In this document: piece after piece, positions 4,461 to 64,000 of the stretch | Numbering within the stretch: the first letter of the stretch is position 1 | How the letters are laid out: the number at the start of each line of letters is the position of its first letter | Source: Terebella lapidaria | Lineage: Eukaryota > Annelida > Polychaeta > Terebellida > Terebellidae | Direction of reading: 5' to 3' | Assembly: GCA_949152475.1 (NCBI GenBank) | Contig: OX424564.1 | Location: 7,812,001-7,876,000 of the forward strand | Length of the DNA: 64,000 nt | Notes under the pieces: generated by a model | Told to the model about the DNA's origin: nothing | The model's database searches: none | The model's input: the letters and a program-made list of their open reading frames with translations, nothing else | Position numbers and translations under genes: made by a program

Positions 4461-4735
4461 TGTGTGACCTCTCTGATATGTGTGAAAATGTACTCCTACT
4501 AGCTTGGCTAGTGGGATATCCCTTTAGCTCATCTGGTAGAGCGGATGGTTGATGTGTGAGAGGTCCCGGGTTCAAATCCCAGTCTGGCCGAGGCATTCCT
4601 CGCTTGGTACCAATTGGTGGCAGCGGTGGGATGCCTTGTATTCCTTCGGGATGTGGCCCTGTTATGACTGAGGATGTCCTGAGGTTGAAGTAGGATGTCT
4701 GGTTATAGCTCCGCACCTCGGGACGAGGTTTCAAA
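4461..4735 (+). mobile_element. tRNA-derived SINE, longer copy
   Basis: It contains a polymerase III promoter: an A-box-like TAGCTCATCTGG at 4525-4536 and a B box GGTTCAAATCC at 4569-4579, spaced as in a tRNA gene. A non-tRNA body follows to about 4735. The flanking bases do not pair as an acceptor stem, so it is a tRNA-derived repeat and not a working tRNA gene. It lies about 130 bp upstream of the CAP-gene start codon, so it may sit in that gene's 5' region. Confidence 0.75.
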
Positions 4736-4747
4736 ACCCCCCGGAAA

Positions 4748-4895
4748 TGTGTGACCTCTCTGATATGTGTGAAAATGTACTCCTACTAGCTTGGCTAGTG
4801 GGATATCCCTTTAGCTCATCTGGTAGAGCGGATGGTTGATGTGTGAGAGGTCCCGGGTTCAAATCCCAGTCTGGCCGAGGCATTCCTCGCTTGGT
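4748..4895 (+). repeat. SINE head, duplicated copy
   Basis: This stretch repeats 4461-4608 almost base for base at an offset of 287 bp, including both promoter boxes. The SINE body is absent after 4895. The pair reads as a partial tandem: head-body-head. Confidence 0.85.
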
Positions 4896-5985
4896 TACAT
4901 CTGTTTTTAACATGTGACAATATATCGATCACGGTGACACACACACATGGTTTCATTGTTCAATAGACAAACACCGATGGAGAATGACTCACCGGACGAA
5001 ACGCCACATAAATACACACCGTTCATTGTTGTTCTTCAAGATGGCGTCCCAGAACTAATTGATACACTGCGTATCGATCCCAAATAAGGTGTAGTTATTG
5101 ATTGTAGGCAGTTTTTCCTGCAGTGACTGTCCAATCTAAACTAAATACGATCTGCCAATTAGGCTGACATCAGGGCGCTCTGTATATATTATGACGAGAG
5201 AAGCCAGCGCTCTTCGGGACGCCGTGTGACAGCAGCATACGATATATCGATCGTTTGATGAGTTCAGCAGGTGAGAAAAAAAACCGGCTTTTGAACGATG
5301 AATTATTTCTCCAACTATTTGACCATGTCTATCAAATTTACTCTTCAAAATGTCAACAAATCGCAACGCGAGCACCCAGTAACATAATTGGTTTCCTGTT
5401 AGGAATGCTGTCGAAGCGGTGTCCTGAAAGCACACCGAATAACTTGCCATTTATATGTTTATATATATTCAATCGAGGTAGCAGTCATAATATTGTTTTT
5501 TGTTGGAGAGGGGGGGGGGGGTGGGTATATATTCGCAAGTCCTGAGTCTGGCATGTATAGAATATGTATTTCATGGAATGGGTTATAACAAAAACGGCTA
5601 TGTATGGTAGGGCCCATGTGATGCGGACATTGCCTTTGCGCGTCACCTATCACCGCATGACTTCCATAAAATAATATATGTTCATTACCCATATGATTGT
5701 ACACCGTATCTTCAATATGCATAAGCTACCCACGCGTTGTTTGGCGCTGTGCCATATACAACCACTAGATGTTGGAGACACGATGAAGGTAGACCACTTA
5801 CAGTATCCATCGTATAAAAACTCTGCACATATTGTTTATTATATTTTATGTTTCGAATTGAAATGCCTCAGTTACCTTAATACTTTCTTTGAAAACGAAA
5901 CCCGTCAAACATCATAAAACACGACAATTACCCCGTCGATTACATATCGCGCTCGCACTCGCCAGGTGCTACATGTATATAGACC
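4896..5985. other. Non-coding stretch with a poly(G) tract
   Basis: No ORF here has domain content or splice-flanked structure. A run of 12 or more G residues ends near 5521. It may hold the CAP gene's 5' UTR or promoter, but no element can be identified. Confidence 0.5.
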
Positions 5986-6883: not shown

Positions 6884-8046
6884 CACCCTGCCAAATGGCA
6901 TAGAGCGTTGTCCGGCCTAGTTCTTTTGTTTAGGGGTCAGGTCATGTTGTTGTCAACGCTGTGAGGCTAACTTTTTGGCAGCTGATGCCGAAACATGAGG
7001 AGTAAAATATTTTTTCTGTAAAATACTGACCATATTACCTTAGATCGGGGATTCGATGCAGTGTAAGAGATACCAATGGACAAGTATGCACTGTTCAATT
7101 ATCCATAGCAGACTAATTTATTCAGAAATAGGCCCTCGCCCACAGATGTTGTCTACAAATATGTAGTGTCCAAATATTGATCACAATGTTTTCAAAACTT
7201 ATGGCCCATGTACAACAACACTGTATGAACTGGAGGTTTCAATTACTTCGAAATTCAATTGTGAGCAATATAAAGGTCGAACGTCATCTAAATAGGGCTC
7301 TAATAATTTATTGTTGAATCGTCTGTGGCGTGTCAACGCTCTAAGGACATGGTGTACGCTCTAAAGCTACCTGGTCAAAGTTAACAGTCTGGATTTGCTT
7401 GCAGTAATGAGTAGTCTTTGGGTAGAATATCCAAAACGGGTTCATTGAAACTTCACATAAAACGCTTCCGAAAATGATTACTTGTTCATCAAAACAACCA
7501 CAGACATTCTCAATGGCTATTTATACTTCCTGGAGAAGGTCTATGTAACTTTGACCAGGCAGCGTTAGAGCGTTGACCTTGTCCTTAGAGCGTTGACACG
7601 CCACAGGCATTACAATAATAAATCATTACATCTCTATTTAGATGGCGTTGTGCTTTTATATTGCTTACAATTGAAGTTTAGAGTATTTGAAACCTCCAGT
7701 TCATACAGTGTTGCTGTAGGTGGACTGTAAGTACCGGATACATTGCGATAAATCTTTCGACACTACATATTTGTGGGCCACAACCGTGGGCGAGGGCCTA
7801 TTTCTTAACAAATCAGACTCCAATGCATAATTGGACAGCACAGGATTGTACATTAGTATCTCGCACACTGCATCGAAAACTTGTTCTAAAGTGAAATGGT
7901 CAGTATTTTACAGAAAAAAATATTTTACTCACCATGTGTCGTAATCAGTTCAGAAAAAGTTAGCCTCACAGCGTTGACAATAACATGACCTGACCCCTAA
8001 ACAAAAGAACTAGGTCGGTCAACGCTCTATGCCATTTGGCAGGGTG
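6884..8046. mobile_element. Fold-back (long inverted repeat) element, 1163 bp
   Basis: The two halves are inverted copies of each other over nearly the whole length, meeting near 7460. The ends read CACCCTGCCAAATGGCATAG on the left and its complement on the right, ending at 8046. A 4-bp target duplication, AACA, occupies 6880-6883 and 8047-8050. The motif AGAGCGTTG(AC) recurs several times in both arms, a subterminal repeat pattern typical of fold-back and hAT-like elements. There is no ORF for a transposase, so it is non-autonomous. Confidence 0.85.
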
Positions 8047-21175: not shown

Positions 21176-21683
21176 TTTTAAAGTGGAATAATCAGTTTCT
21201 GAAATTCGTTATCAATCGATTGGCTAGCATATACTAGATGATATGACACCGTTACAAACCCCAAAATACGTCCGCATGACCCTCCAGGGGAGATTAACTG
21301 TACATACCGTAAACACGCACGATGTAAACGAATTGTTTACATCTGCGCTAACATAAACAAAGACAGGAATTTCCCTATATTGGCGTTATTTACAACTCAA
21401 AAGTATTAAACTGAATATCTGGGGTTCCATCACTATAATATACCATACATATACGAGTTTCAAATGATAGTGCTCTGTATTGTTCTATTCTATAATTTTG
21501 TTAATTTTGCATCACTGCATGGGAACCGTTCCGTGCGAAACTATTTTTAAAATCCGATCTTCAATGCCAAATTTAGATAAATTCATGTGCGCATTGAAAC
21601 TTTTACATTGTACAGCTGCTCTGAGGACAGCTACTGATCACTTTCAAACAGAAAACCAAAAACCGATTATCCCACTTCAAAAG
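21176..21683. mobile_element. MITE family copy 1 (508 bp, uninterrupted)
   Basis: The terminal inverted repeats read TTTTAAAGTGGAATAATCAG on the left and the complement of CTTTTGAAGTGGGATAATCG on the right. ACTGCA flanks both sides (21170-21175 and 21684-21689) as the target duplication. The whole element is an inverted copy of the MITE at 24537-25968, but lacks the ribozyme insertion found there. Confidence 0.75.
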
Positions 21684-24536: not shown

Positions 24537-24748
24537 GGTATTGAAATGGAATAATCGGTTTTTGGTTTTATGGTTGAAAGTGATCAAGAGCTATTCCCTG
24601 AGCAGCTGTAAAGTGCAAACGTTCCAATGCGCATACGAATTTATCTAAATTCGATATTGAAAATCGGATTTTAAAACTTTTGAAAAATATTTTAAATGCT
24701 ATTTCAAAAATAGTAGCCCCCCCCCCCCCCCCCCTTGTGGACACTGAA

Positions 24749-25043
24749 CATTATTCATGAGCAGTGCTGCCACTTGGAGAATGTCAGCTCATAACATGAC
24801 TTCCTGTGTTGTCATAGCAACACTTTCAATTATGACATCATAAGTGTCAATTTGAAATCACATTCTTGGGCAAACAATTCATTTTAAACAGGACACTCAG
24901 TTGTTAAACACTCCCAGTGCAGCTGATGAGTCCCCTTGAGGGACGAAACGCGTCCAGCTGTTAATGGGTGCCAGTGTCGCATTCCCGAAAAACGATGCTA
25001 TGATATTTAGGTGCAAAGTTCAGCCCCTGCCTCGTCTCGTTTC
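24749..25043 (+). repeat. Direct repeat 1 of the hammerhead element (295 bp)
   Basis: Nearly identical to 25272-25566, at an offset of 523 bp. Begins CATTATTCATGAGCAGTG and ends CCTCGTCTCGTTTC. Confidence 0.92.
24909..24976 (+). ncRNA. Type I hammerhead ribozyme, copy 1
   Basis: Core CTGATGA at 24923-24929, then stem II GTCCC / GGGAC (24930-24934 with 24940-24944, loop CTTGA), GAAA at 24945-24948, stem III as the palindrome ACGCGT (24948-24953) and a predicted cut after C24954. Stem I pairs GC.G with C.GC next to the core (one A-A mismatch), then CCCA/TGGG and CACT/AGTG across an internal loop. The two-base stem III cannot close in a monomer; hammerheads of this kind act as dimers. Confidence 0.88.
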
Positions 25044-25271
25044 GATACATTATTATTTCTGTTGGGTCTTAGCCTTGCTTTGAGGAGTTGTCATTCTGTT
25101 TGCCAAAAGCAACACTGTCACACAAGACAGGAAGCCATACTCAAATTGACTCCTACTAAATATGCGTGTCAACTAGACAAATGTGCCTTTGAACTGTTGT
25201 GGTGTTTATCAACTGTAAACCCCAAAATCTTTGAACAACAAAACTGAGAGATAACTTTTTACCAAAAAGCT

Positions 25272-25566
25272 CATTATTCATGAGCAGTGTTGCCACCTGG
25301 TGAATGCCGGCTCATAACATGACTTCCTGTGTTGCCATAGCAACACTTTCATTTATGACATCATAAATGTCAATTCGAAATCACATTCTTGGGCGAACAG
25401 TTCATTCTAAACAGGACACTCAGTTGTTAAACACTCCCAGTGCTGCTGATGAGTCCCCTTGAGGGACGAAACGCGTCCAGCTGGTAATGGGTGCCAGTGT
25501 AGCATTCCCGAAAAACGATGCTATGATATTTAGGTGCAAGGTTCAGCCCCTGCCTCGTCTCGTTTC
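25272..25566 (+). repeat. Direct repeat 2 of the hammerhead element (295 bp)
   Basis: Second copy of 24749-25043 with few substitutions. It ends 19 bp before the right target duplication. Confidence 0.92.
25432..25499 (+). ncRNA. Type I hammerhead ribozyme, copy 2
   Basis: Same fold as copy 1: CTGATGA 25446-25452, GTCCC/GGGAC, GAAA 25468-25471, ACGCGT, cut after C25477. Here stem I next to the core is a perfect GCTG/CAGC, so this copy looks the more active. The two cut sites lie exactly 523 nt apart, defining a unit-length RNA. Confidence 0.9.
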
Positions 25567-26153
25567 ATTACAAAATATAATATACTATTTTAAAAATAGT
25601 ATCGCAAGGGACAGTTTTTCATGCAGTGATGCAAAAGTAACAAAAAATGCTGAGAATATGGAGAAATACATAGCCCCGTCACTTGAAACACGTATATGAA
25701 TGGTATATTATAGTGATGGTACCACAAATATTCAGTTTGATTCTTTTGTGTTGCAAATACCGACAATATACGAAATTCATGTCTTTGTTTATGTTAGCGC
25801 AGATGTAAACAATTCAATAACATCGTGCGTTTTTACGTTGTGTTCAAACTCTACTGCAGGGTCATGCGGACGTATTTTGGGGGTTGTAATGGTACTATAT
25901 CATCTAATATATGCTAGCCAATTGACTGATAATGAATTATTATGAAACCGATTATTCCACTTTAAAAGCATCTACTCGTGGGAGGTGACGTGTGACTAAA
26001 AGAAATATGATGTATGCAGAAGGTATAGGTTTTTGGTAGGCCTTAGTATCCAAGAGCATCACCCGGACAACGCTTGGAATTTACATTTGTGGTATCTCGT
26101 CGTAATAAATGTATGCTGTAGATGATAAATAGGCAAATATTTCTTATGTATGT

Positions 26154-28247: not shown

Positions 28248-28921
28248 ATGCCTTGGAATCTATTTGCATTTGTTTTAGGTAAGTCAAAAATTAATTCAAA
28301 ATAGTTGGTTGTTTACTGTTGTAGTCATGTTTTGAGCTGTATCATATATTCCCATTTGCTTACTTCAAATGGGAAAATGGTTTCCAAGGAACAATTATCG
28401 CTATTGTAATGTAAACTATTTGGTGGGTTTAGGGTTGATCCTTACCCTTGTCATGGAGTGTGCATGTCTGGAGTGCTGGCAGTGTGTAGCTGATGACTGT
28501 CACCTGGACCCCATGTACAACTACAAGGCATTCCACACCAAATGTGAAACTAAACAAAGAAACTGAAACGGGAAATGGATTGCATGGGAAAATCGGACTG
28601 CATATGATCTTCCAATCACATCACCTCGGATCATTCACCGATGTTACATTTTTATTGCATGATTTCCAGAAAATTGAGTATCGAGGACGAGATCTCTGGT
28701 CGGGTGTTGAACATGTGTCAACTATCAGGAGCTGTTCAAGTGGGAAATGTGTTCCACAAAAAGACAACTGTACTGAAAAACGACTATCGAATCCCGGTTG
28801 TATGGTGCGACATTGCTGTCAGAATAGACTCTGTAACAGAGCCGACAGCATATCTGGATTATCACATGTGACGTTCTGGATAACAAAAATGTGTATATCA
28901 TATATTTTACTTCCAAAATGA
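28248..28921 (+). pseudogene. LU (Ly6/uPAR three-finger) gene copy A, probably broken at the exon 2 donor
   Basis: Exon 1 is 28248-28278 (MPWNLFAFVL, phase 1, donor GTAAGT). Exon 2 starts at 28433 after TTTAG and completes a signal peptide and the ECWQC start of the LU domain. A deletion after about 28545 removes the end of exon 2 and its donor, so the frame stops at 28566. Exon 3 (28670-28921, after TTTCCAG) is intact, with HCCQNRLCN and a hydrophobic tail. Compared with copy C, the lost piece includes the CEPGxxCQ segment. Unless an unseen splice rescues it, the product is a truncated secreted peptide lacking the second half of the fold. Confidence 0.75.
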
Positions 28922-29399: not shown

Positions 29400-31015
29400 A
29401 GTTGTATACTAATTCCATCAGATGTACAGTAGAAACAACTACATTAACCACACTGTCTGCCCCTGATGACGCCAGTGTGTCTTTCGATAAAGTATTTGGT
29501 TGGGCTTTGTTTCTATTGCAAAATGTTGCATTTTATACTTGTTATTGAAATCATCACAATTTGGTTGTATTGGTGGTAATAGATTGATACTTACATCACT
29601 ACCTGACTGTTATTCTACAACGATATCTACAGTGAAATCAAACCCAAATTGCTCTTACATGGAAATGTTAGTACTTGGTGTTCAATAGATAAGTTTAGAA
29701 TATGTTACGATCAATTCAAGGTGCTCAAATAAATATTTATAGCCTGTATACAATTTGCTTACTTGAAGCAAAAAATACTTCGTGTTTTACTATTCAACAA
29801 ACACATATCTATCTATCTATATATATATATTGGCTGCTTGAATCTTTGCATAAGTTCGCATGGTATCAAAAATGCCAATTCTACGGCAAATTTATGGACG
29901 CAATATATCGATTTTGCCATTGAAATATGCTTAGCTGGACCATAATTCAGTTGAGATACCGGAAACGAAACTGGATCGGGGTACAGCTGCCGTGACATAG
30001 GCAATGTTAGGCAAAAGATCAATATTTCAGCATTATGATATATTGTGAGCGATATTTCACTGGGCCACTTGGCATCATTAGCAACGTTGTTTGGTTTTTG
30101 GGGTCCTGTATTGCATGCATCAAACGCATGTCTTGATCTCGACTCATGGGCGCCATCACGCATTATGGATCGGCCTCACGCAACCTCGCCTCGAATGATT
30201 CGTTTTAGTACACATTTTCCCTCAATGGAGACATCCCTCATTTCAGACAACTTAAGAAGAATTGTGCCTCAATATATGAATACAAACACATGAATATTAC
30301 TGAAACGTGCATATTATATGGATAATATTTTGATAAAATAACCAGTTCAGTTAATATTCCACATTCCGTATCATGTGTGAGTATGAATCATCCAACGGAA
30401 CAATAACAAAATTCACTGGTGTAACTTTGAATTTCATATTTTGACACATAAATACTTTGTTTAATGGTTCTACAATGCACGAGCTGCAGATGCGTGTACT
30501 TGTTGAGTACCTAATATCATCCGTTTGACTGCCGATGCTGGTACTACATTCCCGGACATCTGCAATTCTGGCCTTTGCAATCATTGTTTAGATGTAATTT
30601 TTAGTATAGGAATTAAGAAAAATGAATATCTGGAATTTGAAAATCCTAATGTTGACCAAAACAAGGCCAAAGAATGTAACATACATCCACTTCAGGTTCG
30701 TCTGGTTATATCGTCTAACATTCATCAATAATATTTTCCTTTACAGAGAGAAAAAAGGGCTCCACGTGGGCCTCCAGACACTACCTGATTCTTAGTGGAC
30801 CGTAAGTGTCCACCCAGAAACAAGCAGCAGGCATAGAATGTCTGCTATTTGAAAAGGTTTACCATTCCCGCTGCAATTAGGCCAAGTTTCAGTTGGAATA
30901 TAGAAGCTGATAAAACATAATGTTATCCCTGTTTAAGCTATTCCCTGAATAGTCCACGCTGGCATAGCTTTGCTGTGCATCTACATTTTCTAATCAATTA
31001 CAGACCAAGTTCTGG
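29400..31015. repeat. Duplicated non-coding blocks (shared with 43.75, 52.7 and 57.0 kb)
   Basis: 29400-29630 (CACACTGTCTGCCCCTGATG) recurs at 57000-57150 and 43755-43870. R4 lies at 29790-30300. 30300-30900 is collinear with 53035-53700 (CGAGCTGCAGATGCGTGTAC). A (TATC)n/(AT)n microsatellite is at 29811-29830. Confidence 0.7.
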
Positions 31016-31091
31016 TCAGCATCTCTGATGGCATTTCTCTGCATTCGAAACCATCAGCATCTCTGATGGCATTTCTCTGCATTCGAAACCA
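31016..31091. repeat. 38-bp tandem duplication
   Basis: TCAGCATCTCTGATGGCATT...CCA occurs twice head to tail. The paralogue at 53.82 kb has one copy, so this happened after the large duplication. Confidence 0.92.
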
Positions 31092-31532
31092 GAGAGTGTG
31101 ACACACAACTGGTTGTGGTGATTACATGATGCAAATGCAATAATCAAATCTACATAACATTAAGATCCACTGAGATAAGGGTTATGCATTTTTGGGGGGT
31201 AATTTCCAGAGAATCTAGTACGGCAGAGATATCGCGCTATTTCCTGAGTGTAGATCCCTTTACTGTGGATTCGACAGGCTCTTCACTCCGGGTCGAGCCG
31301 ACATGACTTTCAAGCCACAATCCCTCTCACATTGTCTTGCTTGTCTTGTGTGTCAGACTGGAGCTTGTTGCCATTTGCTCTATAATTTCATGCTCGAATA
31401 TGCGTCAGCAAAGTGTTTCTGTTTCGTGAGCGTGGAACCCACACACACTGTTTGAAAATGAAATCACCTGGTTATGTAACAGTATTCACTGGTGAATCAC
31501 TACATGTCTTTACTCACAATTACGGGTATGCT

Positions 31533-32500
31533 ATGACTTGCATTTCGATTTTTATCACAATAGTATGTGCAGATCACATATAATTCTTCTTAGCTTGTTG
31601 TAATCATGTTTTCAGCTGTATAATATGGTACTCTATATGTGATCGAGTGTTGAATTACGCGAGCTTTCATATTGAATGTATATTTTTTTTAAATAGCTGA
31701 TCATGTATGACTTGACGTTCAAATATATATTTGCTTGGACACGTTGTGGTTAAGGCTTTTGACACCAAAATATTGAGTAAATGTTCTGTATGAAGCTAGT
31801 TTCATCTCATATCTCATTGTTTCCACCATATCGCAGTATGTTGATGCTTAAACTAGAGAATGACATACTGGCCATGGCGAACTTCAGTGGAGATCATCTT
31901 TGCCTAATTGGATGAATCATTATTGTTATTACATATTGTTCGATGGGATTAGGGTTGATTGTTACCCTTGTCGTGAAATGTACAATTCTGGAATGCTAGC
32001 AGAGTGTAGCTGATGACTGTCACCTCGGTCTCCTGTACAACTACAAGGCATTTCGCACCACCAGTGAACCAGGCCTGCTCTGCCAGGTAAGTTTTCTTGA
32101 TACATGAAACACATGAAGTTAACACATGAAGCTAGCAAAACCAATGTCTATGAATCGGAGAAATGATTGCTTGGGAAAGTCTGACAGCATATGATATTTC
32201 AATTACTTCACTTAATGTTGACTAATCTGTAATTTTTGTTGTTTTATCCCAAAAATTTGAGTATTGAAGGCGGGATCTCTGGTCGGGTGTTGAATATGTA
32301 TCAACCATCAGGAGCTGCTCAAGTGGAAAATGTGTTCCACAAAAAACTCTACTGAAAAACGACTATCGAACCCAGGCCGTATGGTGCGACATTGCTGCCA
32401 AAATAGACTTTGTACTATAGCTAGCAGCATATATGGATTATCACATGTGACGTTCTGGATTAAATGTATAAGTATGATCTTGCAGGTGTGTATGTTGTAT
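31533..32500 (+). pseudogene. LU gene copy B, pseudogene
   Basis: The exon 1 remnant starts with ATG at 31533, but its donor (ATA before GTATGT) shifts phase. Exon 2 at 31953-32086 keeps the 134-bp length and donor GTAAGT, but carries a nonsense codon, TAG at 31997-31999, where copies A and C have Trp of the CWQC motif, and a Cys-to-Ser change later. The exon 3 acceptor is lost (CCCAAAAA replaces TTCCAG) and a TGA follows within five codons. HCCQNRLC is still readable in another frame. Clearly dead. Confidence 0.9.
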
Positions 32501-34336
32501 GTTGAGCTGTTCATTGGACACAAAACGAATGTGATAACAATACTGATGTAGGTAGACCAAAGACAGGGATATTATTGGCGAGTATTGATTGGAACATGTT
32601 TGTATGTGTCTGAATTGCCAATAATATTATTCATCGAAAATTAAATATTATTATATCTCAGATACTCATATAGACTTGAAAAAGAGTTGGGTAGTATGAA
32701 CAACTTTTTAGATGTAAACAATGTGTTAATCATAAAACGAGAGCAGTTGTTGTAGTCTCTTTTCTACAAGTTCGACCACTTTAATTCGAATTCGAAAGGA
32801 TTCTCTCTGAATACCATAATGATAACAAGGTTCTTGGAATAAACTTGTATCTCCCTCAGTTCTCAAATTTTACGTCAAAAGCAGTCATGCAAACTATGTT
32901 TTCCATAAATCCATAATTATAACGTGGCTGTGGAGTGTTGAGAAATGTCCAATTATGTGGATTTTTAGTGAGATCCACAGACAGTCAACACGTGGATATA
33001 TGATATGGATAATTAACCCTACAGTTGAGTTCAGACTGATGTAATCTCATGATTCCATGCCGAATTATTTATACAAACAGTCCCACTCACACGATTGACA
33101 CAACCACTTAACTATATTTGCTTCAGTATTTTTTCAAATGTACTGGGAAACTATCACGCGTGATGGTAACAATTGGTAACGGTGATATTAACTTATGGCT
33201 TCAATCATTTCCTTCATTTAACAACTGCTGATTTCATTTCTGTGGTTTGGTGGAGAACAATCTCAATATTTAAATTGTGGAAATTGTGGGTAATCTAGCA
33301 TATAGCATATCGGGTGTTGAATATGTATCAACCATCAGGAGCTGCTCAAGTGGAAAATGTGTTCCACAAAAAACTCTACTGAAAAACGACTATCGAACCC
33401 AGGCCGTATGGTGCGACATTGCTGCCAAAATAGACTTTGTACTATAGCTAGCAGCATATATGGATTATCACATGTGACGTTCTGGATTAAATGTATAAGT
33501 ATGATCTTGCAGGTGTGTATGTTGTATGTTGAGCTGTTCATTGGACACAAAACGAATGTGATAACAATACTGATGTAGGTAGACCAAAGACAGGGATATT
33601 ATTGGCGAGTATTGATTGGAACATGTTTGTATGTGTCTGAATTGCCAATAATATTATTCATCGAAAATTAAATATTATTATATCTCAGATACTCATATAG
33701 ACTTGAAAAAGAGTTGGGTAGTATGAACAACTTTTTAGATGTAAACAATGTGTTAATCATAAAACGAGAGCAGTTGTTGTAGTCTCTTTTCTACAAGTTC
33801 GACCACTTTAATTCGAATTCGAAAGGATTCTCTCTGAATACCATAATGATAACAAGGTTCTTGGAATAAACTTGTATCTCCCTCAGTTCTCAAATTTTAC
33901 GTCAAAAGCAGTCATGCAAACTATGTTTTCCATAAATCCATAATTATAACGTGGCTGTGGAGTGTTGAGAAATGTCCAATTATGTGGATTTTTAGTGAGA
34001 TCCACAGACAGTCAACACGTGGATATATGATATGGATAATTAACCCTACAGTTGAGTTCAGACTGATGTAATCTCATGATTCCATGCCGAATTATTTATA
34101 CAAACAGTCCCACTCACACGATTGACACAACCACTTAACTATATTTGCTTCAGTATTTTTTCAAATGTACTGGGAAACTATCACGCGTGATGGTAACAAT
34201 TGGTAACGGTGATATTAACTTATGGCTTCAATCATTTCCTTCATTTAACAACTGCTGATTTCATTTCTGTGGTTTGGTGGAGAACAATCTCAATATTTAA
34301 ATTGTGGAAATTGTGGGTAATCTAGCATATCAGAAT
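32283..34336. repeat. Tandem duplication of 1027 bp, no visible divergence
   Basis: 32283-33309 and 33310-34336 read the same wherever compared, including the LU exon 3 remnant. The junction repeats TAATCTAGCATAT. The paralogue at 54.75-55.80 kb has a single copy. Very recent, or an assembly artefact. Confidence 0.92.
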
Positions 34337-37300
34337 ATGACGGAAGAGACTTGCAGAACACCGCCCACCGCCCCTCAGCAGCACTGTGTGAATTTGAAAT
34401 TCAAGCTATTAACAACAATACATATCGCCAAACATCGTATACAACACCTCAATATAGAGACACACGAGCATACGTTCGAAAAATCGAATAAGACGTGAAA
34501 TAGGTATAATGCATCCAAAATTAAGAAGTAGCTTAGATAATAAGTCAATGTTGAGTCTTGATTTCATTCGACGTGGTATTATTAAAAAATCACAGTTCAT
34601 CAATAGTCTTATTATTGATATTACATCAGCCACAGCACAGATCACTTTGTGAAAAAACTGATATGAACAATACAAAATGAGAGTTGATGTCGTGGTTGAG
34701 ACATATTTGTAAAATCACACATTGAAGTCATGGTTGATTGTAGTAAATTGTCCGGGGATAATACCAGAAGCATAGGCTCCGGAATTTTTCACATATTGCT
34801 TATAATACATAAGTAATACAATGATGATGTTACCTACATTCGAGGGAGAGTACTAGAGCTCTACTGCATAGAAATAGCGTCCACTGGACATTGACTGGTG
34901 TGATCGACTAATTTCTTCTATTTTAAGACTAGGAAACAACTTTTTATGGGAAGGGAAATCCTGTGATCAAAATTGAGTGACCCTGGAGGAGAGACTACTC
35001 TAGCTGTCACGTGTATAATAACATCCTTCCATCCATCTTCATCTGGCGAATTACATGCAATTTCTTTCTGTCAAGGTCAGCTTTCGATATATCACATCTC
35101 TGTTGACGCCCGTCATGTCTAGCTGTCTGTACCGTAATATGTTTCCAAGCCTATCAAGAATTTAGGGATAGTCTATCTAGCGATAGGTTAGATATTTAAT
35201 TATAAAAAAATAAGTATCAACAACACATGCGAAATAAGTCAGTCCATTCTGCAAACACTATATTATAGATGGGACAAATTATAATTGCATGAACATGAAT
35301 AAACATTATTTCACATAACAGCCTGCTTATACTTGTTATTAACAGACCTAACAAAATCCTTTTTCTGCGTACCATGTAGTTGTTAGTTGTTTCTTTCAAA
35401 CTCAGTATGCATTGCCCTTGTTATGATTCTTTGAACTGTGTGGACGTACAGAATAACGTGAGCAACATGATCCAACGATACTTTCAACTTGAATACACAC
35501 AATGGGAATATCTGGGCATTCGCATTTCTCTGCGATTAGACAGTGTTGATCTGGTGTTATTTCCAGAATGTGCGATTGCTTTTCATCCCAGAGAGCGATA
35601 ACAATGCATCGTTTTCGCTATTTCTAGAATTAGTATGGTAGGCTTCAGAAAAAAGAACTCCTATACTCAAGTTAGGACTATGGTCGTACTATCACAATGT
35701 CGCAGGGGATTTGCAATGAGGAGAGAAGAACTTCTGGTAAGGGACTTCTGTGTATCAGTATTGTCACAATGGTATTCTTGCCAATTCTTTGTGTGAAGTT
35801 CCCTTGTGCATCTTCACTGTTCTACTGAATTGTTTGTACATCTTTGCACATCGTTGCAGCTCATTTCCGTTGCAGTTCGTTTGTTGTTCGTTATGTGCCT
35901 AGTTATGTGCATATCAGACTTGAGCGAATAAGAGTAAATTATACAGCACGGTGGTGGTGCAATATTTTTTTTTAATTGGAGGCTAATTGGAATGAAACGA
36001 ATAAATACCGAACATTTCACAGATGAAATTCGTTGATACCAAATATGTTCCATATATATCATGCATTTGAAATATGCAGATTCATATTGAGCTGCATGTG
36101 TGTAGACAGAATGGTAAATGGTTAGTGCTAGACGATTATATGATATGATCATCGTGCTATTGTTACACACAAATATACCATATTAGAAGATATTATATGT
36201 GATGGCGTGTTTAGAGTGTCCTGAGATTTATAATACCAGGTTAACACTATGTTTGTAGTCCATTACATCTGTAACACAGTAGTGTAAACTCATGATGTTA
36301 CCAATTTGTATTGTTGAGAATTGATCAGTTTTGCCCGGCACGTCTTGACCCTAATCACGGGCAGCATAATGCAACCTAATCTCGGATGGTTAATTAAATT
36401 ACCCATTTCCTTTCACTGACGAATTTTCATACTATGTTAATGAGCTTCAATTTTGAATGCGAAGGAGCTCAATATTATGTATAAGTATGAGAGAAAATTG
36501 TCTCACCTGACGCCATGGGTTTCATAACCGACTCTAATACTGCATCATCTTGGTCAATTAGCCAAATGAGGTCATGTTTTGTGAGTCCACTTTGAATTCA
36601 GAACCACAGACAAATACACCTTGGCAAATGTATTATGATAAATGTATAATGCACATTATTGTGTATTGGTTATAATCGAATATAATCAATAACTGCTGGG
36701 GACCACAGTTTAGCACGTTTAGCATGTTTAATAGGAAAAATATTTTAAAAAAATATTGACTGGTTTCGAAGGCAGCTGCTTTAAATGATCCACATAGACC
36801 TTCAAACTCTGCCCGATTGTTAGTGGACTTGTGTGTCTACCCAGAATTAAACATCCAATTTGGTGGTTTTGTGGAAAGCTTGTGAATTGTCTGTTGTATA
36901 ATTGACAAGGTGTACAATCCACCTTTCCTGCAATTAGTCCTGCAATTAGACCACTTTGTGGTTGGAATATTCAATTGAGAAGCACCACAAAGCTCTGTTG
37001 TCCTGGTGATGCCATTCCCTGCATAATCCACGCTGGTGTAACTTTAGTGTGCATCTAACTTTTCTTGTTAATTACAAAGCGAGTTTTGGTCCGCATCTGT
37101 GATCTCGTGTTTGCTTTGAATTGGAAACCAGGAAGCAAACCACACAAATATAATGTGTTAATTACATGATGCGAATGCAATCACCAGGTTTACCTAATGC
37201 TATGATCCTAGGATTTAAACACTTGAGAAATGCATTATAGCAGGGCATAGTTTATCAATTCAACCTTTTTCGAATCAGTTTTATCGTGAGGTGATTGTCT

Positions 37301-38600
37301 TGAAAATTGAGGTCGATACATAAAAATATCCGAATGTATACTAAATATCACCTGTGATGGCATGTTTATAATGTTCGTGGAATTTATAACATCAATTCAA
37401 TACTGTAGTTCCGACCATCGGTATGTAACTATATTTTACGACTGCTGATATTGAGCATTCATCAATAATCCTCAGAATTACTGGACACATACATTTACCC
37501 AAATTAACTCAAAAACCTAACAACGTTGTCTGGTTGGCAGTCGATTCTTCTGTCTACTGTGAAGTTAACACTCAACCCGCTTATTTGAGTAACAGTTCTT
37601 AGAACGCCTGCTGGTTAATAGATGAGGTCTACCTACTGGGCTCCTGGATATCCTGATGGGTTGTCATTTGACTGGAGAAAAATAAGTACTCAATGACTAC
37701 AGGAAAAGGCTGTACGAAGTAGTATTAGGCATGATGCGACATTGTTGTGTTTGAATATAAAACAAACACGCATATATTTTGCCTGCTTGAATATTGCATG
37801 AAAGTGCATGATATTGTTTGAGATTATCATGGAACATTAATGAGCAAATGGTATTTTGCTCCGTTCGGAATCGATGTTCGATGTTGGTTAGAATCTCAGC
37901 AATATCATATCATTGTTATAACGAATTCTTCGACAAATATCTTGACACAATATATCGAACCTGCCACCAAAATAGGGTTACCTGGACAATATCTCAGTTG
38001 ACATGACAGTAACGAAACTGGATTAGAGAGCCGCTGTTGTGATATATGTAAGTAAAGGATCAATACAGCAGCGACAAGGTGTATTGTGAAAGATATTTCA
38101 CTGGGCCGTTTGACTTCACTCGTAATGTTGTTACTTTTAGAGGGCGGTGTTTTCCATGTTACCCTAATGTGGCCTTGATCTCGACTCACAGACGCCATCA
38201 CACGATAAGCATTGTCTTCATGCAACCGAGAATGTATATGCCCATTTTCCTTCACTGAAGCAGAAATAGCAGACGGATTTGAGTTACCCATAGTGGCCGC
38301 GTAATATTAATACATAAATAAGACTAGCAATCCTGAAATGTTCATATCCTAGAATATTGAAACTGTTAAAACACCACAAAGCTCAGTTTCCCCAGTGATG
38401 TCATTCCCTCAATGATCCACCCTAGTGTAGCTCTGTTGTACATCTATATTTTCTAGTCAATTGTAAACCAAGCTCTGGTTAGCATCACTGATTGCGTCTT
38501 CCTAAACCAGGGAGCGCAATACACAAATAGATTATGGTAATTGCGTGATGTAAATGCAATATGAAAATCTACATAACGTTAAGGTCCTAGGATTTGAACG
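34337..38600. repeat. Non-coding duplicated DNA: blocks R5, R1, R2, R3, R4, R3
   Basis: The blocks occur in the order R5 34.97, R1 35.48, R2 36.0, R3 36.98, R4 37.77, R3 38.37 kb. They are collinear with 55.79-62.09 kb apart from two transposons there. No ORF is preserved between the copies. Confidence 0.8.
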
Positions 38601-52092: not shown

Positions 52093-52689
52093 TGGATCAT
52101 TACTAACTGCTATTTTGGAATCTATTTGCATTGTCATAGGTAAGTCAAAAATTAATTTAAAATAGTTGGTTGTATACTGTTGTAGTCATGTTTTGAGCTG
52201 TGTGATATACATGTATTAATATATGGATTATGTAAGCTTCTGCTAACTTCAAGGGAGAAAAATGGTATTTCAACGAACAATTATCGTTATTGTAAACTAT
52301 TCGATGGGATTAGGATTGGTCCTGTGAACCACCTGGTCTGTCAGGTAAATGTTTTGAACATATGAAACTGTCAAATGAACTAAATCAGTGAATTTGTCTC
52401 CGGAAATAGACTGCATGGGAAAATCTGACTGCCTGTGATCTTCCAATCACATCACCTTCGATAATTCCCCAATGTCTTATCTTTATTGCATGATTTCCAG
52501 AAAATTGAGTATCGAGGACGAGTTCCTTGGTCGGGTGTTGAATATCTATCAATGATCAGGAGCTGCTCAAGTGAGACATGTGTTCCAAAAAAAGACATCT
52601 GTATAAAAAAACGACTGGAATCCCGGTTGTATGGTGTCAGAATAGACTCTGTAACAGAGCCGGCAGCAGATCCGGATTATCACATGTGA
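52093..52689 (+). pseudogene. LU gene copy D, pseudogene (paralogue of A)
   Basis: Exon 1 has lost about 17 bp including the ATG, but keeps donor GTAAGT (about 52141). Exon 2 is cut to 52314-52344 (31 of 134 bp), leaving only the CEPP.LVCQ end and donor. Exon 3 begins at 52501 with good identity, then loses a piece around the HCC motif, shifting frame and ending at 52689. Confidence 0.9.
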
Positions 52690-54302
52690 CGTTCTGGATA
52701 ACAAAAATGTACTTCCATAATGATTGCTATAATGTGTATAGCACATTATATTGTGAGCGATATTTCACTGAGCCACTTGGCATCATTAGCAACGTTGTAT
52801 GTTTTTGGGGTTGTGTACTGCATGCACCCAATGTACTCTTGATTACATTGAAAATTAATTCGATTTTTTTTCCAAACGCATGTCTTGATCTCGACTCATG
52901 CGACATCACGCCACACGGATTGGCCTCACGCAACCTCGCCTCGAATGATTCATTTTAGTACACATTTTCCCTCACTGGAGACATCCCTCATTTCAGACAA
53001 ACTAAAAAGAATTATACCTCAATATATGAATACAAAAACATGAATATTACTGAAACGTGCATATTATATGAATAATAATATGATAAAATAATCAGTTCAG
53101 TGAATATTCCACATTCCGTATCATATCTGAGTATGAAACATCCAACGGAACAATAAGCAAAAGTCACTGGTGTAACTTTGAATTTCATAATTTGACACAT
53201 AAATACTTTGTTTAATGGTTCTGCAATGAACGAGCTGCAGATGCGTGTACTTGTTGAGTACCTAATATCATCTGTTTGACTGCCGATGCTGGTACTACAT
53301 TCCTGTACATCTGCAATTCTGCTCTTTGCAATCATTGTTTAGATGTAATTTTTAGTATAGGAATTAAGAAAAATGAATATCTTGAATTTTAAAATCCTAA
53401 TGTTGACCAACACAAGGGCAAAACTTCGAAACATTGTGCCAAAGAATGTAACATCCACTGCAGGTTCGTCTGGTTATATCGTGGAACATTCATCAATAAT
53501 ATTTACCTTCACAGAGAGAAAAAAGGGCTCCACGTGGGCCTCCAGACACTACCTGATTATCAGTGGACGAAGTGTCCACCCAGAAACAAACAGCAACTTC
53601 GTGCTTTCGTTAAAAAGGCATAGAATGTCTGCTGTTTGAAAAGGATTTCCATTCCCTCTGCAATTCATTTGGCGCTGCAATTAGGCCACGTTTCAGTTGG
53701 AATATAGACGCTGATAAAACAATATGTTATCCCGGTTTAAGCTATTCCCTGAATAGTCCACGCTGGCATAGCTTTGCTGTACATCTACATTTTCTAATCA
53801 ATTACAGACCAAGTTCTGGTCAGCATCTCTGATGGCATTTCTCTGCATTCGAAACCAGAGAGTGTGACACACAACTGGTTGTGGTGATTACATGATGCAA
53901 ATGCAATAATCAAATCTACATAACATTAAGATCCACTGAGATAAGGGTTATACATTTCTTTGGGGGTAATTTCCAGAGAATCTAGTACGGCAGAGATATC
54001 GCGCTATTTCCTGAGTGTAGATCCCTTTACTGTGGATTCGACAGGCTCTTCACTCCAGGTCGAGCCGACATGACTTTCGAGCCACAATCCCTCTCACATT
54101 GTCTTGCTTGTCTTGTGTGTCAGACTGGAGCTTGTTTCCATTTGCTCTATAATTTCATGCTCGAGTGTGCGTCAGCAAAGTGTTTCTGCTTCGTGGTGAG
54201 CGTGGAATCCACACACACTGTTTGAAAATGAAATCACATGGTTATGTAACAGTATTCACTGGTGAATCACTACATGTTTTTACTCGTAATTACGGGTATG
54301 CT

Positions 54303-54725
54303 ATGACTTGGAAATTCCTTGCATTTTGACTTTTATCACAATAGTATGTTTAGATCACATATAATTATTCTTAGCTGGCTGATATATGTGATCGAGTGTT
54401 GAATTACGCGAACGTTTGTATTAAATGTATATTTTGAAAATAGTTGAGCATGTATGACTTGACTTTCAAATATATATTTGCTCGGACACGTTGTGGTTAA
54501 GGATTTTGACACCAAAGTATTGAGATATTAAATGTTCTGTATAAAGCTAGTTTTATTTCATATTACCATAAATTATGTTGCTTCCACCATGTATGTTGAT
54601 GTTTAAACTAGAGAATGACATACTTGCCATGGCTAACTTCAGTGGAGATAAATTTTGCCTAATTGGGTGAATCATTATTGTTATTACATATTGTTCGATG
54701 GCATTAGGGTTGATTCTTAAAAAGA
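54303..54725 (+). pseudogene. LU gene copy E, remnant (paralogue of B)
   Basis: Exon 1 starts ATGACTTGGAAATTCCTTGC but meets TGA after eight codons. Exon 2 keeps only its first bases (TTAGGGTTGATTCTTA, about 54706-54720) and is joined directly to 3' flank DNA, so most of exon 2 and all of exon 3 are deleted. Confidence 0.85.
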
Positions 54726-58937: not shown

Positions 58938-59273
58938 GGCCTAGTGCACCAAACCGTCGTAAAACATGCGTCGGTCGTGCGTCAGTTTGTCTTACGTCCG
59001 TCGTGGAAACGTCCGACGTGAAATCTACGACCGTCGTGTGTGTACCACAAAGTCGCACGTTTGAGGCCACCGACGGATCGGTGTCCACACCGACAACTCG
59101 GTGTATGAATTTTAGAGTAGAAGAAGGTCAAGGTTGTCTAATTTGATGACTTATATTATGAGCACGTGTCTCAAATACAAGACAAACTGAGTGAACTACT
59201 CTACTTGTACGTGTACAGGGAGATCTTTTTGGGGGAATATTATAAATTATTTGGCGTCATTCAACTTTACGCC

Positions 59274-60086
59274 ATGCCGAAGAGACAGAGCAACAAGTCC
59301 AAAGATAATGGGCCTAAGGTCAAGAAGGGTGCATTTAGTGATGCAGAACTATGTATTCTGTTGGAGAAGTTTGGGGAGAGCAAAAGTCTGCTACTGTCCA
59401 ATCTTAAATCCACGGTTCAAGCTAAAAACAAACGCGACATGTGGTCGAAAATCACGGACGCCGTGAATGACGTGGGGCATAGAAACCGAACGATCGACGA
59501 AGTCAATCATAAGTGGAAAGACTTAAAATTTTCTGGGCGCAACCCAGGGACAGGGGGCGGGAAAAACCCCAAGGAGAGTCCTCATCTGGATGTCATCGCG
59601 GATATCATCGGCGAGGATAATCCTTGTGTCACTGGGATAGCAACAAGTACGTGAACCCAGTCGCCTTTATTTCCGTCACTGTTTTGGTTGTTTTCCTTAT
59701 TATTATTAGTAATATTGATAATATTATTAGTATGTGGTGGTGCAAGTTTGGTTAGAGGTAAACCGGAAAAGAGAGAGACAAATGAGGAAACCGACATGGC
59801 CATCCAACCCGGGACCAGTGGCACGAGCAACACCGCCGATGATCACAGCAAGGTCATTGACGCTAAAGCTGTCTCTGTTTCACCAACAGAGACCCCGAAG
59901 GACCCGCTTATGTCCATGACTCGTGAAGAGCTTCACCGGGAGTTGCTTCGTGAGGAGATCTTGAAGACAAGGGCCAAGCGCGATAACCTCGAGCTGGAAA
60001 GGCAGGAATTGATGCTCGGAGTGGCGAAGCTGAAATATCAATTAGGTTTAACTAATGATCCAGCTGAAAACATTGTGATTGTATGA
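59274..60086 (+). CDS. Myb/SANT-like DNA-binding protein of the Harbinger transposon
   Basis: Two exons, 59274-59646 and 59758-60086, with donor GTACGT and acceptor GTTAGAG, give an uninterrupted 233 residues; the junction codon is Ser. The ATG begins MPKRQSNKSK, a basic start; an upstream in-frame ATG at 59166 is less likely. Residues about 19-85 form a Myb/SANT (MADF-like) helix set (FSDAELCILLEKF, MWSKITDAVN, VNHKWKDLKF). The end (about 175-225) is rich in Glu, Arg and Leu and should be a coiled coil. In this superfamily the Myb-like partner carries the transposase to the nucleus and to the element ends. The gene looks intact although the transposase is broken. Confidence 0.85.
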
Positions 60087-61369: not shown

Positions 61370-62096
61370 TTATCATGATATTGTTTGAGATTATCATGAA
61401 ACATTTATTAGCAAACGGTATTTTGCTCCGTTCCGAACCGATGTTCGATGTTGGTTGGAGTCTCAGCATTATCATATCATTTTTATAACGAATTCTTCGA
61501 CAAACATCTGGACACAATATATCGAATCTGCCACCAAAATAGGATTACCTGGATAATATCTCAGTTGACATGACAAAAACGAAACTGGATTAGGGAGCTG
61601 CTTTTGTGATATATGTAAGTCAAGGATCAATACAGCAGCGACAATGTGTATTGTGAAAGATATTTCACTGGACCGTTTGACATCACTCGCAATGTTGTTA
61701 GTTTTAGAGGGCGGTGTTTTGCATGTTACCCTAATGTGGCCTTGATTTCGACTCACAGACGCCATCACACGATAAGCATGGTCTTCACGCAACCGAAAAT
61801 GTATATACAGTACCCATTTTCCTTCACTGAATCATAAATAACAGACGGATGTGAATGGTTTTTCTTAATTGACGAATTAGAAAGCGATGTAGCTCAATAT
61901 ATGAGCGAAAAAACACATGATGATCACATAGATTTGGCCTCTGCAGTGGCCGTTACCCATAGTGGCCGCGTAATATTAATACATAAAAAGACGAGTAAAC
62001 CTGAAAGGTTCAAATCCTGGAATATTGAAACTGTTAAAGCACCACAAAGCTCAGTTTTCCCAGTGATGCCACCCTAGTGTAGCTCTGTTTTACATC
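61370..62096. repeat. Blocks R4 and R3 (second copies), resumed after the transposon
   Basis: Collinear with 37.81-38.44 kb. TTGTTTGAGATTATCATG is present twice at 61361-61398, a small local duplication next to the transposon's right end. Confidence 0.8.
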
Positions 62097-64000
62097 TAGA
62101 ATCAGAATCAGAATCAGAAGCGTTTATTCGAGAGATAACAGAAAACGAGAGATAACAGAAACAGAGAACAAGGTAACATCAAAATAAATGAGGAATGAAA
62201 ATATATAACTTGAGTACAAATCAAACAAAATACTGTACAAAGCGGAACAAAGCAAAGAAGGCCTAATGCAGTATGTACACTTAGGAATGGACCACTGTTT
62301 CAGTGGGTGGTCCATAACAGAAGCAAAAAGTAACAGTACAAACACTAATTAACATGAAATAAAAAGAGGGAAAGAAAAGAAGACTGTACATGTATCTATA
62401 ACTGGAGTATAAACTGAAAAGCTTACTGTATAAGAATATAAATGAAAAAGACAGAAATAGAAGAGGATTGGATAGAAATTGATGTGAAGAGAGAATATTG
62501 TAATACAGATAAGGAATAAATAAATTAGTATGTTTTTTTAAGTAGTGTTTGGTGTTGGTTGGTGAGGGGGGGAAGATGGCTGGGAGGCCGGGGGCTGTAC
62601 CAGGGATAGAGACCCAGGCATGGAGAACAAGTATTGCCATATTTAATATTCATTGATAGATTTGGTGACCAGATCAGATCTACTAATTGCATTGCTTGCA
62701 TAGAGGATTGGTGCATAACACCGAGTCCAGATAATTTGAAAGGAATTTTCTTTTTGTTGTCTTTTTTGCAACAGCAAGTGATTCATATGTTTGTGAATTT
62801 GAATTAAATTTATTCCAAATAGATGGAAATGAATACAATGGGAATTTCCTCAAATGATTGGAGTCACAGCGATCAATTGCAAATAGGGAAGACTGTCTTG
62901 TTACATAGTTTGCCTGGATATCATGATTGAGTTTAAATACACCACTAAAGGAGGAAGGCAATATATTGTGTAAATATTTGTACATAAAGACAAGTACTTC
63001 ATAATTATATTGATCTTCAAGTTTCAGTATTTTCATTTGTTTGAACAAAGGCTCTGTGTGACTATTGTATTTGGCTTTATTAATTGTTCTGATTGCTCTT
63101 TTCTGTAGGATGTAGGTTTTCTTAATTAGAGACTGACTTGCATTGCCCCATGCTAGTATTCCATATGTTAGGTGAGGGTGTATCATGGTGAAATATAGGG
63201 TTCTGAGAGACTCAGTGGGAAGTATATTTCTAACCTGCTTTATTATGTATAGTGATCTTGATATTTTCTTACTTATAAATGCTAGGTGGTGTTTCCATGT
63301 AAGATTTTCATCTATATTGACACCAAGAAATTTTATACTATGTTCATTAGATGTGTTGCTGATTTGATCGAGCACAAGCCCATTTAACTGTATTGATAGA
63401 TTACTTGTATTGCACACCTGGTTGAGGCCCCTGAATACAATATATTTGGTTTTTTTTATATTTAGTGATAACTGATTGGCACAGAACCAGGTGTACAAAT
63501 TACTGAGTTCCTCGTTCGAGTTATGATAAAGGTTTATGATGTTTGAATCGGACAGATACAGAGAAGTATCATCTGCAAATGAAAGTATGTTGGCTTCGGT
63601 GGATATAGCAATATCATTTACGTAAATCAAGTACAATAGAGGTCCCAGAATGGAACCTTGAGGGACACCATATTCAGTAGACAGAGTTTCAGATTTTGTA
63701 TTATCCATCTCAACATATTGATATCGGTCTGATAGATAGCTAGCAAGCCAGTCCCTAATTAATCCCCGCAGGCCATAATGTTGCAATTTATCAAGGAGTA
63801 TCTGTCTGTTTAGTACATCAAAAGCCTTGCTCAAGTCGCATAGTATTGCTAAAGTATATTGTTTAGGAACATTATTATTAGAGTTGGCAAAGTCATTAAG
63901 AAGGTGAATTATAGGATGGATGGTTGAGTGTTTAGTCCTAAATCCGTATTGGTGTTTATAAAATATTGAATTACTATCCAGGAAATTTAGTATTTTGTTG
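62097..64000 (-). mobile_element. Non-LTR retrotransposon (CR1/Rex/Jockey group), 3' part
   Basis: Minus-strand element running off the window end. Its 3' end is at 62097 with a short tandem tail (GATTCT repeated three times) after AATAAACGC, a usual ending for this group. The 3' UTR is 62097-62682. The insertion lies in block R3 within TACATCT, which is continuous at 38.43 kb. Confidence 0.88.
62683..64000 (-). CDS. Reverse transcriptase ORF2, C-terminal ~439 codons, open to the window edge
   Basis: The frame is open from the window end to a TGA-type stop at 62683, with no interruption. Reverse-transcriptase motifs occur in order: YGFRTKHST, LCDLSKAFD (first catalytic Asp), YGVPQGSILGP, FADDT (catalytic Asp pair) and LSLNIKKTKYIVF. 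Then comes the long C-terminal region typical of CR1/Rex/Jockey elements (HPHLTYGILAWG, LQKRAIRTI, YKYLHNILPSSF, FPSIWNKF) and a Cys-rich end NPLCKQC. The endonuclease part should lie beyond the window. This copy may be young, since its visible ORF is intact. Confidence 0.92.
   Translation of the reverse strand, partial: NKILNFLDSNSIFYKHQYGFRTKHSTIHPIIHLLNDFANSNNNVPKQYTLAILCDLSKAFDVLNRQILLDKLQHYGLRGLIRDWLASYLSDRYQYVEMDNTKSETLSTEYGVPQGSILGPLLYLIYVNDIAISTEANILSFADDTSLYLSDSNIINLYHNSNEELSNLYTWFCANQLSLNIKKTKYIVFRGLNQVCNTSNLSIQLNGLVLDQISNTSNEHSIKFLGVNIDENLTWKHHLAFISKKISRSLYIIKQVRNILPTESLRTLYFTMIHPHLTYGILAWGNASQSLIKKTYILQKRAIRTINKAKYNSHTEPLFKQMKILKLEDQYNYEVLVFMYKYLHNILPSSFSGVFKLNHDIQANYVTRQSSLFAIDRCDSNHLRKFPLYSFPSIWNKFNSNSQTYESLAVAKKTTKRKFLSNYLDSVLCTNPLCKQCN

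Follow-up and report, generated by a model that had tools for sequence, protein, structure and literature searches.

Hammerhead ribozymes are carried by several kinds of repetitive DNA. Animal retrozymes, in the sections of PMC7229834 that describe them, are non-coding elements with type I hammerheads, a GC content below 50%, and target-site duplications (TSDs) longer than 4 bp, and they occur as dimers or larger arrays. Their circular RNAs are ~170–400 nt long and their repeats 150–450 bp, with circles of 150 to >1000 nt also mentioned in that paper. According to the part of PMC4918200 that covers them, Nematostella repeats have 15-bp TSDs, published retrozyme circles are >70% paired, and plant LTR retrozymes consist of direct repeats of 300–400 bp, with a hammerhead in each, around a non-coding centre of 300–600 bp. 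Amphibian hammerheads that have a single pair in helix III, closed by a palindromic tetraloop, show poor cleavage as monomers but cleave well once dimerised (PMC7229834 and PMC6155905, in the portions on these ribozymes).

Penelope-like elements (PLEs) are arranged in tandem or partial tandem, have hammerheads in their pLTRs, and cut AT-rich DNA (PMC11167929, in the part dealing with their structure). In bdelloids, PLEs have 8–10-bp TSDs, and pairs of pLTRs are reported around captured non-coding DNA (PMC3846280, likewise in part). Lastly, hammerheads are known in newt and schistosome satellite DNA, as mentioned in the relevant portions of PMC7229834 and PMC6155905.

Here, we describe a short non-coding element with two putative hammerheads that has inserted into an older transposon and that resembles animal retrozymes. 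It lies in a 64,000-nt stretch of Terebella lapidaria DNA, which we refer to as the window. The features of the locus are as follows.

24541–25965 (about), plus strand: MITE-like host transposon, interrupted by the element (from flank matches to 21680–21176 and inverted-repeat ends)
21176–21680, minus strand: the same transposon without the element (from sequence comparison and inverted-repeat ends)
24668–24676, plus strand: ATTTTAAAA, left TSD copy in the 9-bp reading, identical to 25587–25595
24701–24715, plus strand: ATTTCAAAAATAGTA, left TSD copy in the 15-bp reading, 14/15 against 25587–25601
24716–25586 (15-bp TSD reading) or 24677–25586 (9-bp reading), plus strand: inserted element, delimited by the uninterrupted transposon copy and the TSD
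24717–24734, plus strand: poly-C tract at the left end of the element, seen in the sequence
24749–25042, plus strand: repeat copy 1, 294 bp, with 16 differences from copy 2
24923–24954, plus strand: hammerhead core 1, predicted cut after 24954, A–A mismatch in helix I (24921/24956)
24955–25477, plus strand: predicted 523-nt RNA unit between the cut sites, from the positions of the two cores; its release is a prediction
25043–25271, plus strand: single-copy middle, 229 bp, with no second copy in the window
25272–25565, plus strand: repeat copy 2, 294 bp, in direct orientation to copy 1
25446–25477, plus strand: hammerhead core 2, predicted cut after 25477, helix I (GCUG/CAGC) all paired
25587–25601, plus strand: ATTTTAAAAATAGTA, right TSD copy (its first 9 bases in the 9-bp reading), 9/9 or 14/15 match

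Set against the published descriptions, as far as these go, the element combines traits of several systems. It is like animal non-LTR retrozymes in having a type I hammerhead in each repeat, in being non-coding, in its GC content below 50%, and in its TSD of more than 4 bp, and its helix III resembles that of the amphibian retrozymes. It is unlike them in its unit of 523 nt, in its 1.56 units with a single-copy middle, and in a predicted circle that is not highly self-paired. With PLEs that have hammerhead pLTRs, it shares the partial-tandem layout, the direct repeats with hammerheads, the AT-rich target, and possibly an 8–10-bp TSD, as well as a non-coding stretch between the two repeats (compare PMC3846280); unlike PLEs, it has none of their coding sequence in view, and its helix III is four bases longer than that described for their hammerheads. 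Hammerhead direct repeats around a non-coding centre (here, 229 bp) also recall plant LTR retrozymes, from which the element differs in its hammerhead type (type I rather than type III), its TSD (9 or 15–17 bp rather than 4 bp), and its low GC content. The weak palindromic helix III, which would allow cutting as a dimer, is shared with newt and axolotl satellites (PMC7229834, PMC6155905, in the portions on these satellites), although those form arrays of ~330–350 bp, whereas this is one partial 523-bp dimer. We see an unusual build within a known kind; if functional, the element would work like a retrozyme. No paper recognisable as describing it was found in the literature, which carries little weight, since papers were not searched by sequence.

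Anatomy, insertion site, and surroundings of the element

The element is built around two direct repeats (24749–25048 and 25272–25571) of 300 nt that are 94% identical and start 523 bp apart, bearing out a first-pass annotation, made from the sequence alone, that had proposed direct repeats with this offset. Repeat, middle, and repeat together span 817 bp of the 523-bp unit; the GC content is 42% in the unit and 44% in the repeat. The poly-C tract is separated from repeat 1 by 14 bp, and repeat 2 from the right duplication by 21 bp. Runs of C or G that are 11 bases or longer are found at 5510, 5990, 9624, 9689, 11902, 24717, and 27788 (seven in 64 kb), so that with six others in the window the tract of the element may reflect the habits of this genome. 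The element was also said to lack coding capacity, and there is none to speak of: the longest listed frame that overlaps it has 78 aa from a GTG, and the longest that starts with an ATG has 70 aa and extends beyond the element. There is no further copy of the element within the 64-kb window.

In both repeats (24808–24841 and 25331–25364), the segments GTTG[C/T]CATAGCAAC and TGACATCA lie near each other. We take the former to be X-box-like and the latter to be CRE-like; in the predicted RNA, these segments form hairpins. They were rejected as evidence of a promoter, since a strict X-box is present only in copy 2 and TGACATCA also occurs elsewhere in the window. Promoters are reportedly absent from published retrozymes. 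The differences between the repeats are unevenly spread, with 12 in a 136-bp stretch and 4 in the next 158 bp, where the hammerhead lies (Fisher p 0.021); this contrast was likewise set aside, because the border had been chosen post hoc.

Judging by its ends, the host of the insertion is a MITE-like transposon, one copy of which is interrupted. To the left of the element, 24541–24676 is 84.6% identical to 21680–21545, and to the right, 25587–25967 is 83.2% identical to 21553–21176, both on the minus strand; the inverted repeats TTGAARTGGRATAATCGGTTT and AAACYGATTATTCCACTTTAA terminate both transposon copies. The left and right flanks overlap in the uninterrupted copy (21545–21553) by the 9 bases ATTTTAAAA. 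Such an overlap of flanks is the usual sign of a target-site duplication. A longer match involves ATTTCAAAAATAGTA, the 15 bases immediately left of the poly-C tract, and the right flank. None of 500 shuffled flank pairs reached 14 of 15 matching bases (8 of the 500 reached 13), and when the match is stretched by two bases it becomes 16/17.

The TSD that flanks the element is AT-rich and comprises either 9 bp (9/9) or 15–17 bp (14/15). A 9-bp duplication makes the other MITE copy a perfect empty site and leaves the 14/15 match between 24701–24715 and the right flank unaccounted for. A 15-bp duplication accounts for this match but requires that the other copy has lost 33 bp, or that they were gained relative to it, possibly between the two occurrences of ATTTTAAAA. 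The right end of the element is at 25586 in both readings (25584 with the 17-bp match), and the left end is at 24677 or 24716; the limits in the 15-bp reading are within one base of those proposed in the first pass (24717–25585). Insertion into a transposon that has an uninterrupted copy, together with the flanking TSD, indicates that the repeat pair arrived as one piece. The two MITE copies differ by ~16% and the two repeats of the element by ~6%; provided that the repeats were alike on arrival, this agrees with the element having inserted after the MITE copies diverged from each other. The interrupted transposon, its uninterrupted copy in the window, and the TSD are new relative to the first-pass annotation.

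The window as a whole has 38% GC, few long frames, and many diverged repeats; no tRNA genes were found in its 64 kb. A perfect 148-bp direct repeat (4461–4608 and 4748–4895) and a 500-bp inverted repeat with 83% identity (6884–7383 and 7546–8046) lie upstream of the element. Downstream, diverged duplicated blocks are numerous in the region 27856–62098 and keep their order and strand, e.g., 30039–31964 and 52747–54719 (84%) or 37807–38282 and 61374–61854 (91%). Within it, 32283–33310 and 33310–34338 form a direct tandem duplication of ~1029 bp with 99.8% identity, which is either very recent or an assembly artefact. Two frames, 28490–28918 and 52575–52955, have a cysteine motif in common, which to us is reminiscent of Ly6/three-finger proteins; Pfam gave nothing for either frame at E 0.01. 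A frame at 59142–59651 encodes a Myb/SANT-like DNA-binding domain (PF13873, E 9.5e-14) and is, we presume, possibly of transposon origin. On the minus strand, 62683–63834 is a 383-aa frame for a LINE-type RVT_1 reverse transcriptase; of 7991 candidates scored from the database, 7738 are relatives at E ≤0.001.

The hammerhead cores and their predicted RNA

Each repeat contains the 32-nt type I hammerhead core CTGATGAGTCCCCTTGAGGGACGAAACGCGTC, exact at 24923–24954 and at 25446–25477. As RNA, the core consists of CUGAUGA, a 5-pair stem II (GUCCC/GGGAC, with the loop CUUGA), GAA, ACGCGU, and C17. The claim of a full core in each repeat thus holds for the letters, which are complete and exact twice, and for stem II. 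It holds less well for the helices: helix III is minimal, and helix I of copy 1 (GCAG against CAGC) has one A–A mismatch that is absent from copy 2. Since helix III consists of the self-complementary ACGCGU alone, in a single hammerhead it would be at most very weak. Two further proposals of the first pass fared well. The cut sites are 523 nt apart, as given by the positions of the two exact cores, and an outer helix I is possible in both copies, with ACACU/AGUGU and CCCA/UGGG forming around an internal loop in constrained folds. The free minimum-energy folds of the two hammerhead stretches are not hammerheads (−27.3 and −25.1 kcal/mol, vs −18.1 and −19.8 kcal/mol for the constrained folds), and in copy 1 helix I is mispaired even in the constrained fold; these energies leave out the hammerhead core's own contacts.

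How often would such a motif arise by chance? With up to 3 mismatches, CTGATGAGTCCCCTTGAGGGACGAAACGCGTC is found at two places in the window and never in 100 dinucleotide-shuffled versions, a comparison that uses the found sequence itself as the query. A looser descriptor (CTGANGA, a 4-pair stem II, GAA, U16.1-H17, and at least 2 of 3 helix I pairs, scanned on both strands) matches only the two cores in the window; 6 of 200 shuffled windows contain one match, and none contains two. The two hammerheads share descent and are counted as one independent event, so about 1 window in 30 would satisfy the descriptor, taken by itself, through chance.

The covariance-model check suggested in the first pass gave a divided answer. 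No Rfam family matched at its gathering threshold in the 64 kb. In a 1.1-kb stretch at a relaxed threshold, Hammerhead_1 (RF00163) matched copy 2 with 23.3 bits (E 0.0066) and copy 1 with 21.3 bits (E 0.031), in both cases as the top scorer of 4227 Rfam families, but both scores are below the curated gathering score of 34 bits. Taken over the whole window, the E values are 0.39 and 1.8, so Rfam by itself is no proof of a hammerhead. In our opinion, the sub-gathering scores are due to a helix III with nothing beyond ACGCGU. The candidate hammerhead becomes convincing through its pairing (five pairs in stem II, four in helix I of copy 2, and an outer helix I) and through its retroelement setting.

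Folding of the 523-nt circle, by contrast with the published retrozyme circles, predicts little structure. Its stability has a z of 0.01 vs shuffles, with 28 of 60 shuffled sequences at least as stable (73 of 150 in a second set). The circle is 55% paired, and 143 of 150 shuffles are at least as paired; the minus strand of the unit has a z of −1.70 vs 60 shuffles. A strongly structured circle of the viroid type is not borne out by this comparison. Both this lack of structure beyond that of shuffles and a unit longer than the usual published ~170–400 nt count against a retrozyme.

Origin of the repeat pair

We consider it rather probable that the locus belongs with the animal non-LTR retrozymes, as a retroelement that is non-coding and non-autonomous. 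Support comes from the identity of the cores in the two repeats, the top rank of Hammerhead_1, the TSD, and the uninterrupted transposon nearby. The first-pass annotation had pointed to retrozymes and PLEs as the families with this layout; that suggestion is strengthened by the insertion, as seen from the TSD and the transposon copy without the insert. The first-pass interpretation as a whole is partly supported.

In such a retroelement, one transcript would carry both hammerheads. The two copies could pair through the self-complementary ACGCGU, forming one common helix III of 6 pairs, and cleave as a dimer, and because helix III is nothing more than this motif, cutting as a dimer is probably needed for efficiency. 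Within the dimer, GCUG, which is the 5′ strand of helix I in copy 2, would find its full complement in the 3′ strand from copy 1, whereas the other combination would keep the A–A mismatch; with this mismatch in the first hammerhead, cleavage is probably impaired at one of the two sites. Two cuts would free a 523-nt RNA, which a host RNA ligase may circularise; the RtcB ligase closes other retrozyme RNAs in vitro (PMC7229834, in its section on circularisation). A LINE or Penelope-like reverse transcriptase would then copy the RNA. If the circle were copied from 25565, 88 nt past the cut site, through one turn plus 294 nt, the resulting 817 nt would be exactly repeat-middle-repeat. Alternatively, a Penelope-like enzyme starting internally on a linear tandem transcript would yield the same product, so a single copy cannot tell circle copying from linear-tandem copying.

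The main rival to a retrozyme is a PLE derivative, in which the 294-bp repeats are pLTRs with a dimer-type hammerhead around foreign or residual non-coding DNA, the PLE enzyme acts in trans on a linear tandem RNA, reverse transcription starts internally, and no circle forms. The layout and the AT-rich target agree with what the available parts of the PLE papers describe, and the 9-bp AT-rich TSD reading fits the duplications of bdelloid PLEs. In addition, the hammerhead of PLEs overlaps the start of their ORF (PMC11167929 and PMC3846280, in the parts on ORF structure), and here, in both copies, a frame starting at the core ATG reads MSPLEGRNASS[C/W] and then reaches a stop. What speaks against a PLE is that no PLE reverse transcriptase or GIY-YIG domain was found in the 8 Pfam-scanned frames of the window, one of which is the RVT_1 frame, and none between the repeats. 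Moreover, PLE hammerheads are described in the part of PMC6155905 that covers them as having no helix III or loop contacts, whereas here there are four bases between A15.1 and U16.1. On balance, we regard a PLE derivative as possible but somewhat unlikely.

Two other origins seem far less plausible. The pair could be the remnant of a satellite-like tandem array, duplicated locally and not retrotransposed, as the hammerheads of satellite DNA and the direct order of the repeats might suggest; we give this little credence, because another transposon surrounds the pair, a TSD flanks it, and the uninterrupted transposon copy has nothing of the element. The motif could also be a chance likeness to a hammerhead within an unrelated mobile repeat, and the shuffled windows and the whole-window E values given above lean that way. 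The bare core pattern does arise by chance, as shown by its occurrence, with a free gap, in 6 viral and 74 prokaryote contigs. However, copy 2 has 5 stem II pairs and 4 helix I pairs, an outer helix I, and the repeat layout and insertion described for hammerhead-bearing retroelements. None of the 80 viral and prokaryote matches combines a stem II and a helix I of at least 4 contiguous pairs each (the nearest have 5 + 2 and 3 + 4), and we take these matches to be chance occurrences; by the same count copy 2 passes, and copy 1, with its mismatch, fails. A chance motif is accordingly highly improbable in our judgement. Viral contigs contained neither the exact core nor a 26-nt piece of the repeat, and the 871-bp element had no match among phage records; the collections searched were of viral and prokaryote DNA, where absence is uninformative on animals.

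Implications for PLEs and retrozymes

Which reverse transcriptase moves animal retrozymes is left open in the part of PMC7229834 that discusses their mobility, where PLEs are named as a strong candidate and likely helper. The locus raises an idea that we hold to be unlikely but worth stating: a pLTR-like pair of 294 bp with a dimer-type hammerhead may have been mobilised in trans together with the non-coding DNA between its members, and animal retrozymes would then be PLE derivatives reduced to their pLTRs. If this link were true, the captured middle would determine how large the RNA circle is. The nearly defined ends of the element, within a transposon that has an uninterrupted copy, indicate the limits of copying: it ended at the repeat end, 25565, which is 88 nt beyond the second cut site, and broke off at 24749, 206 nt ahead of the first. 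Compared across copies, such ends would separate rolling-circle copying from Penelope-style internal initiation.
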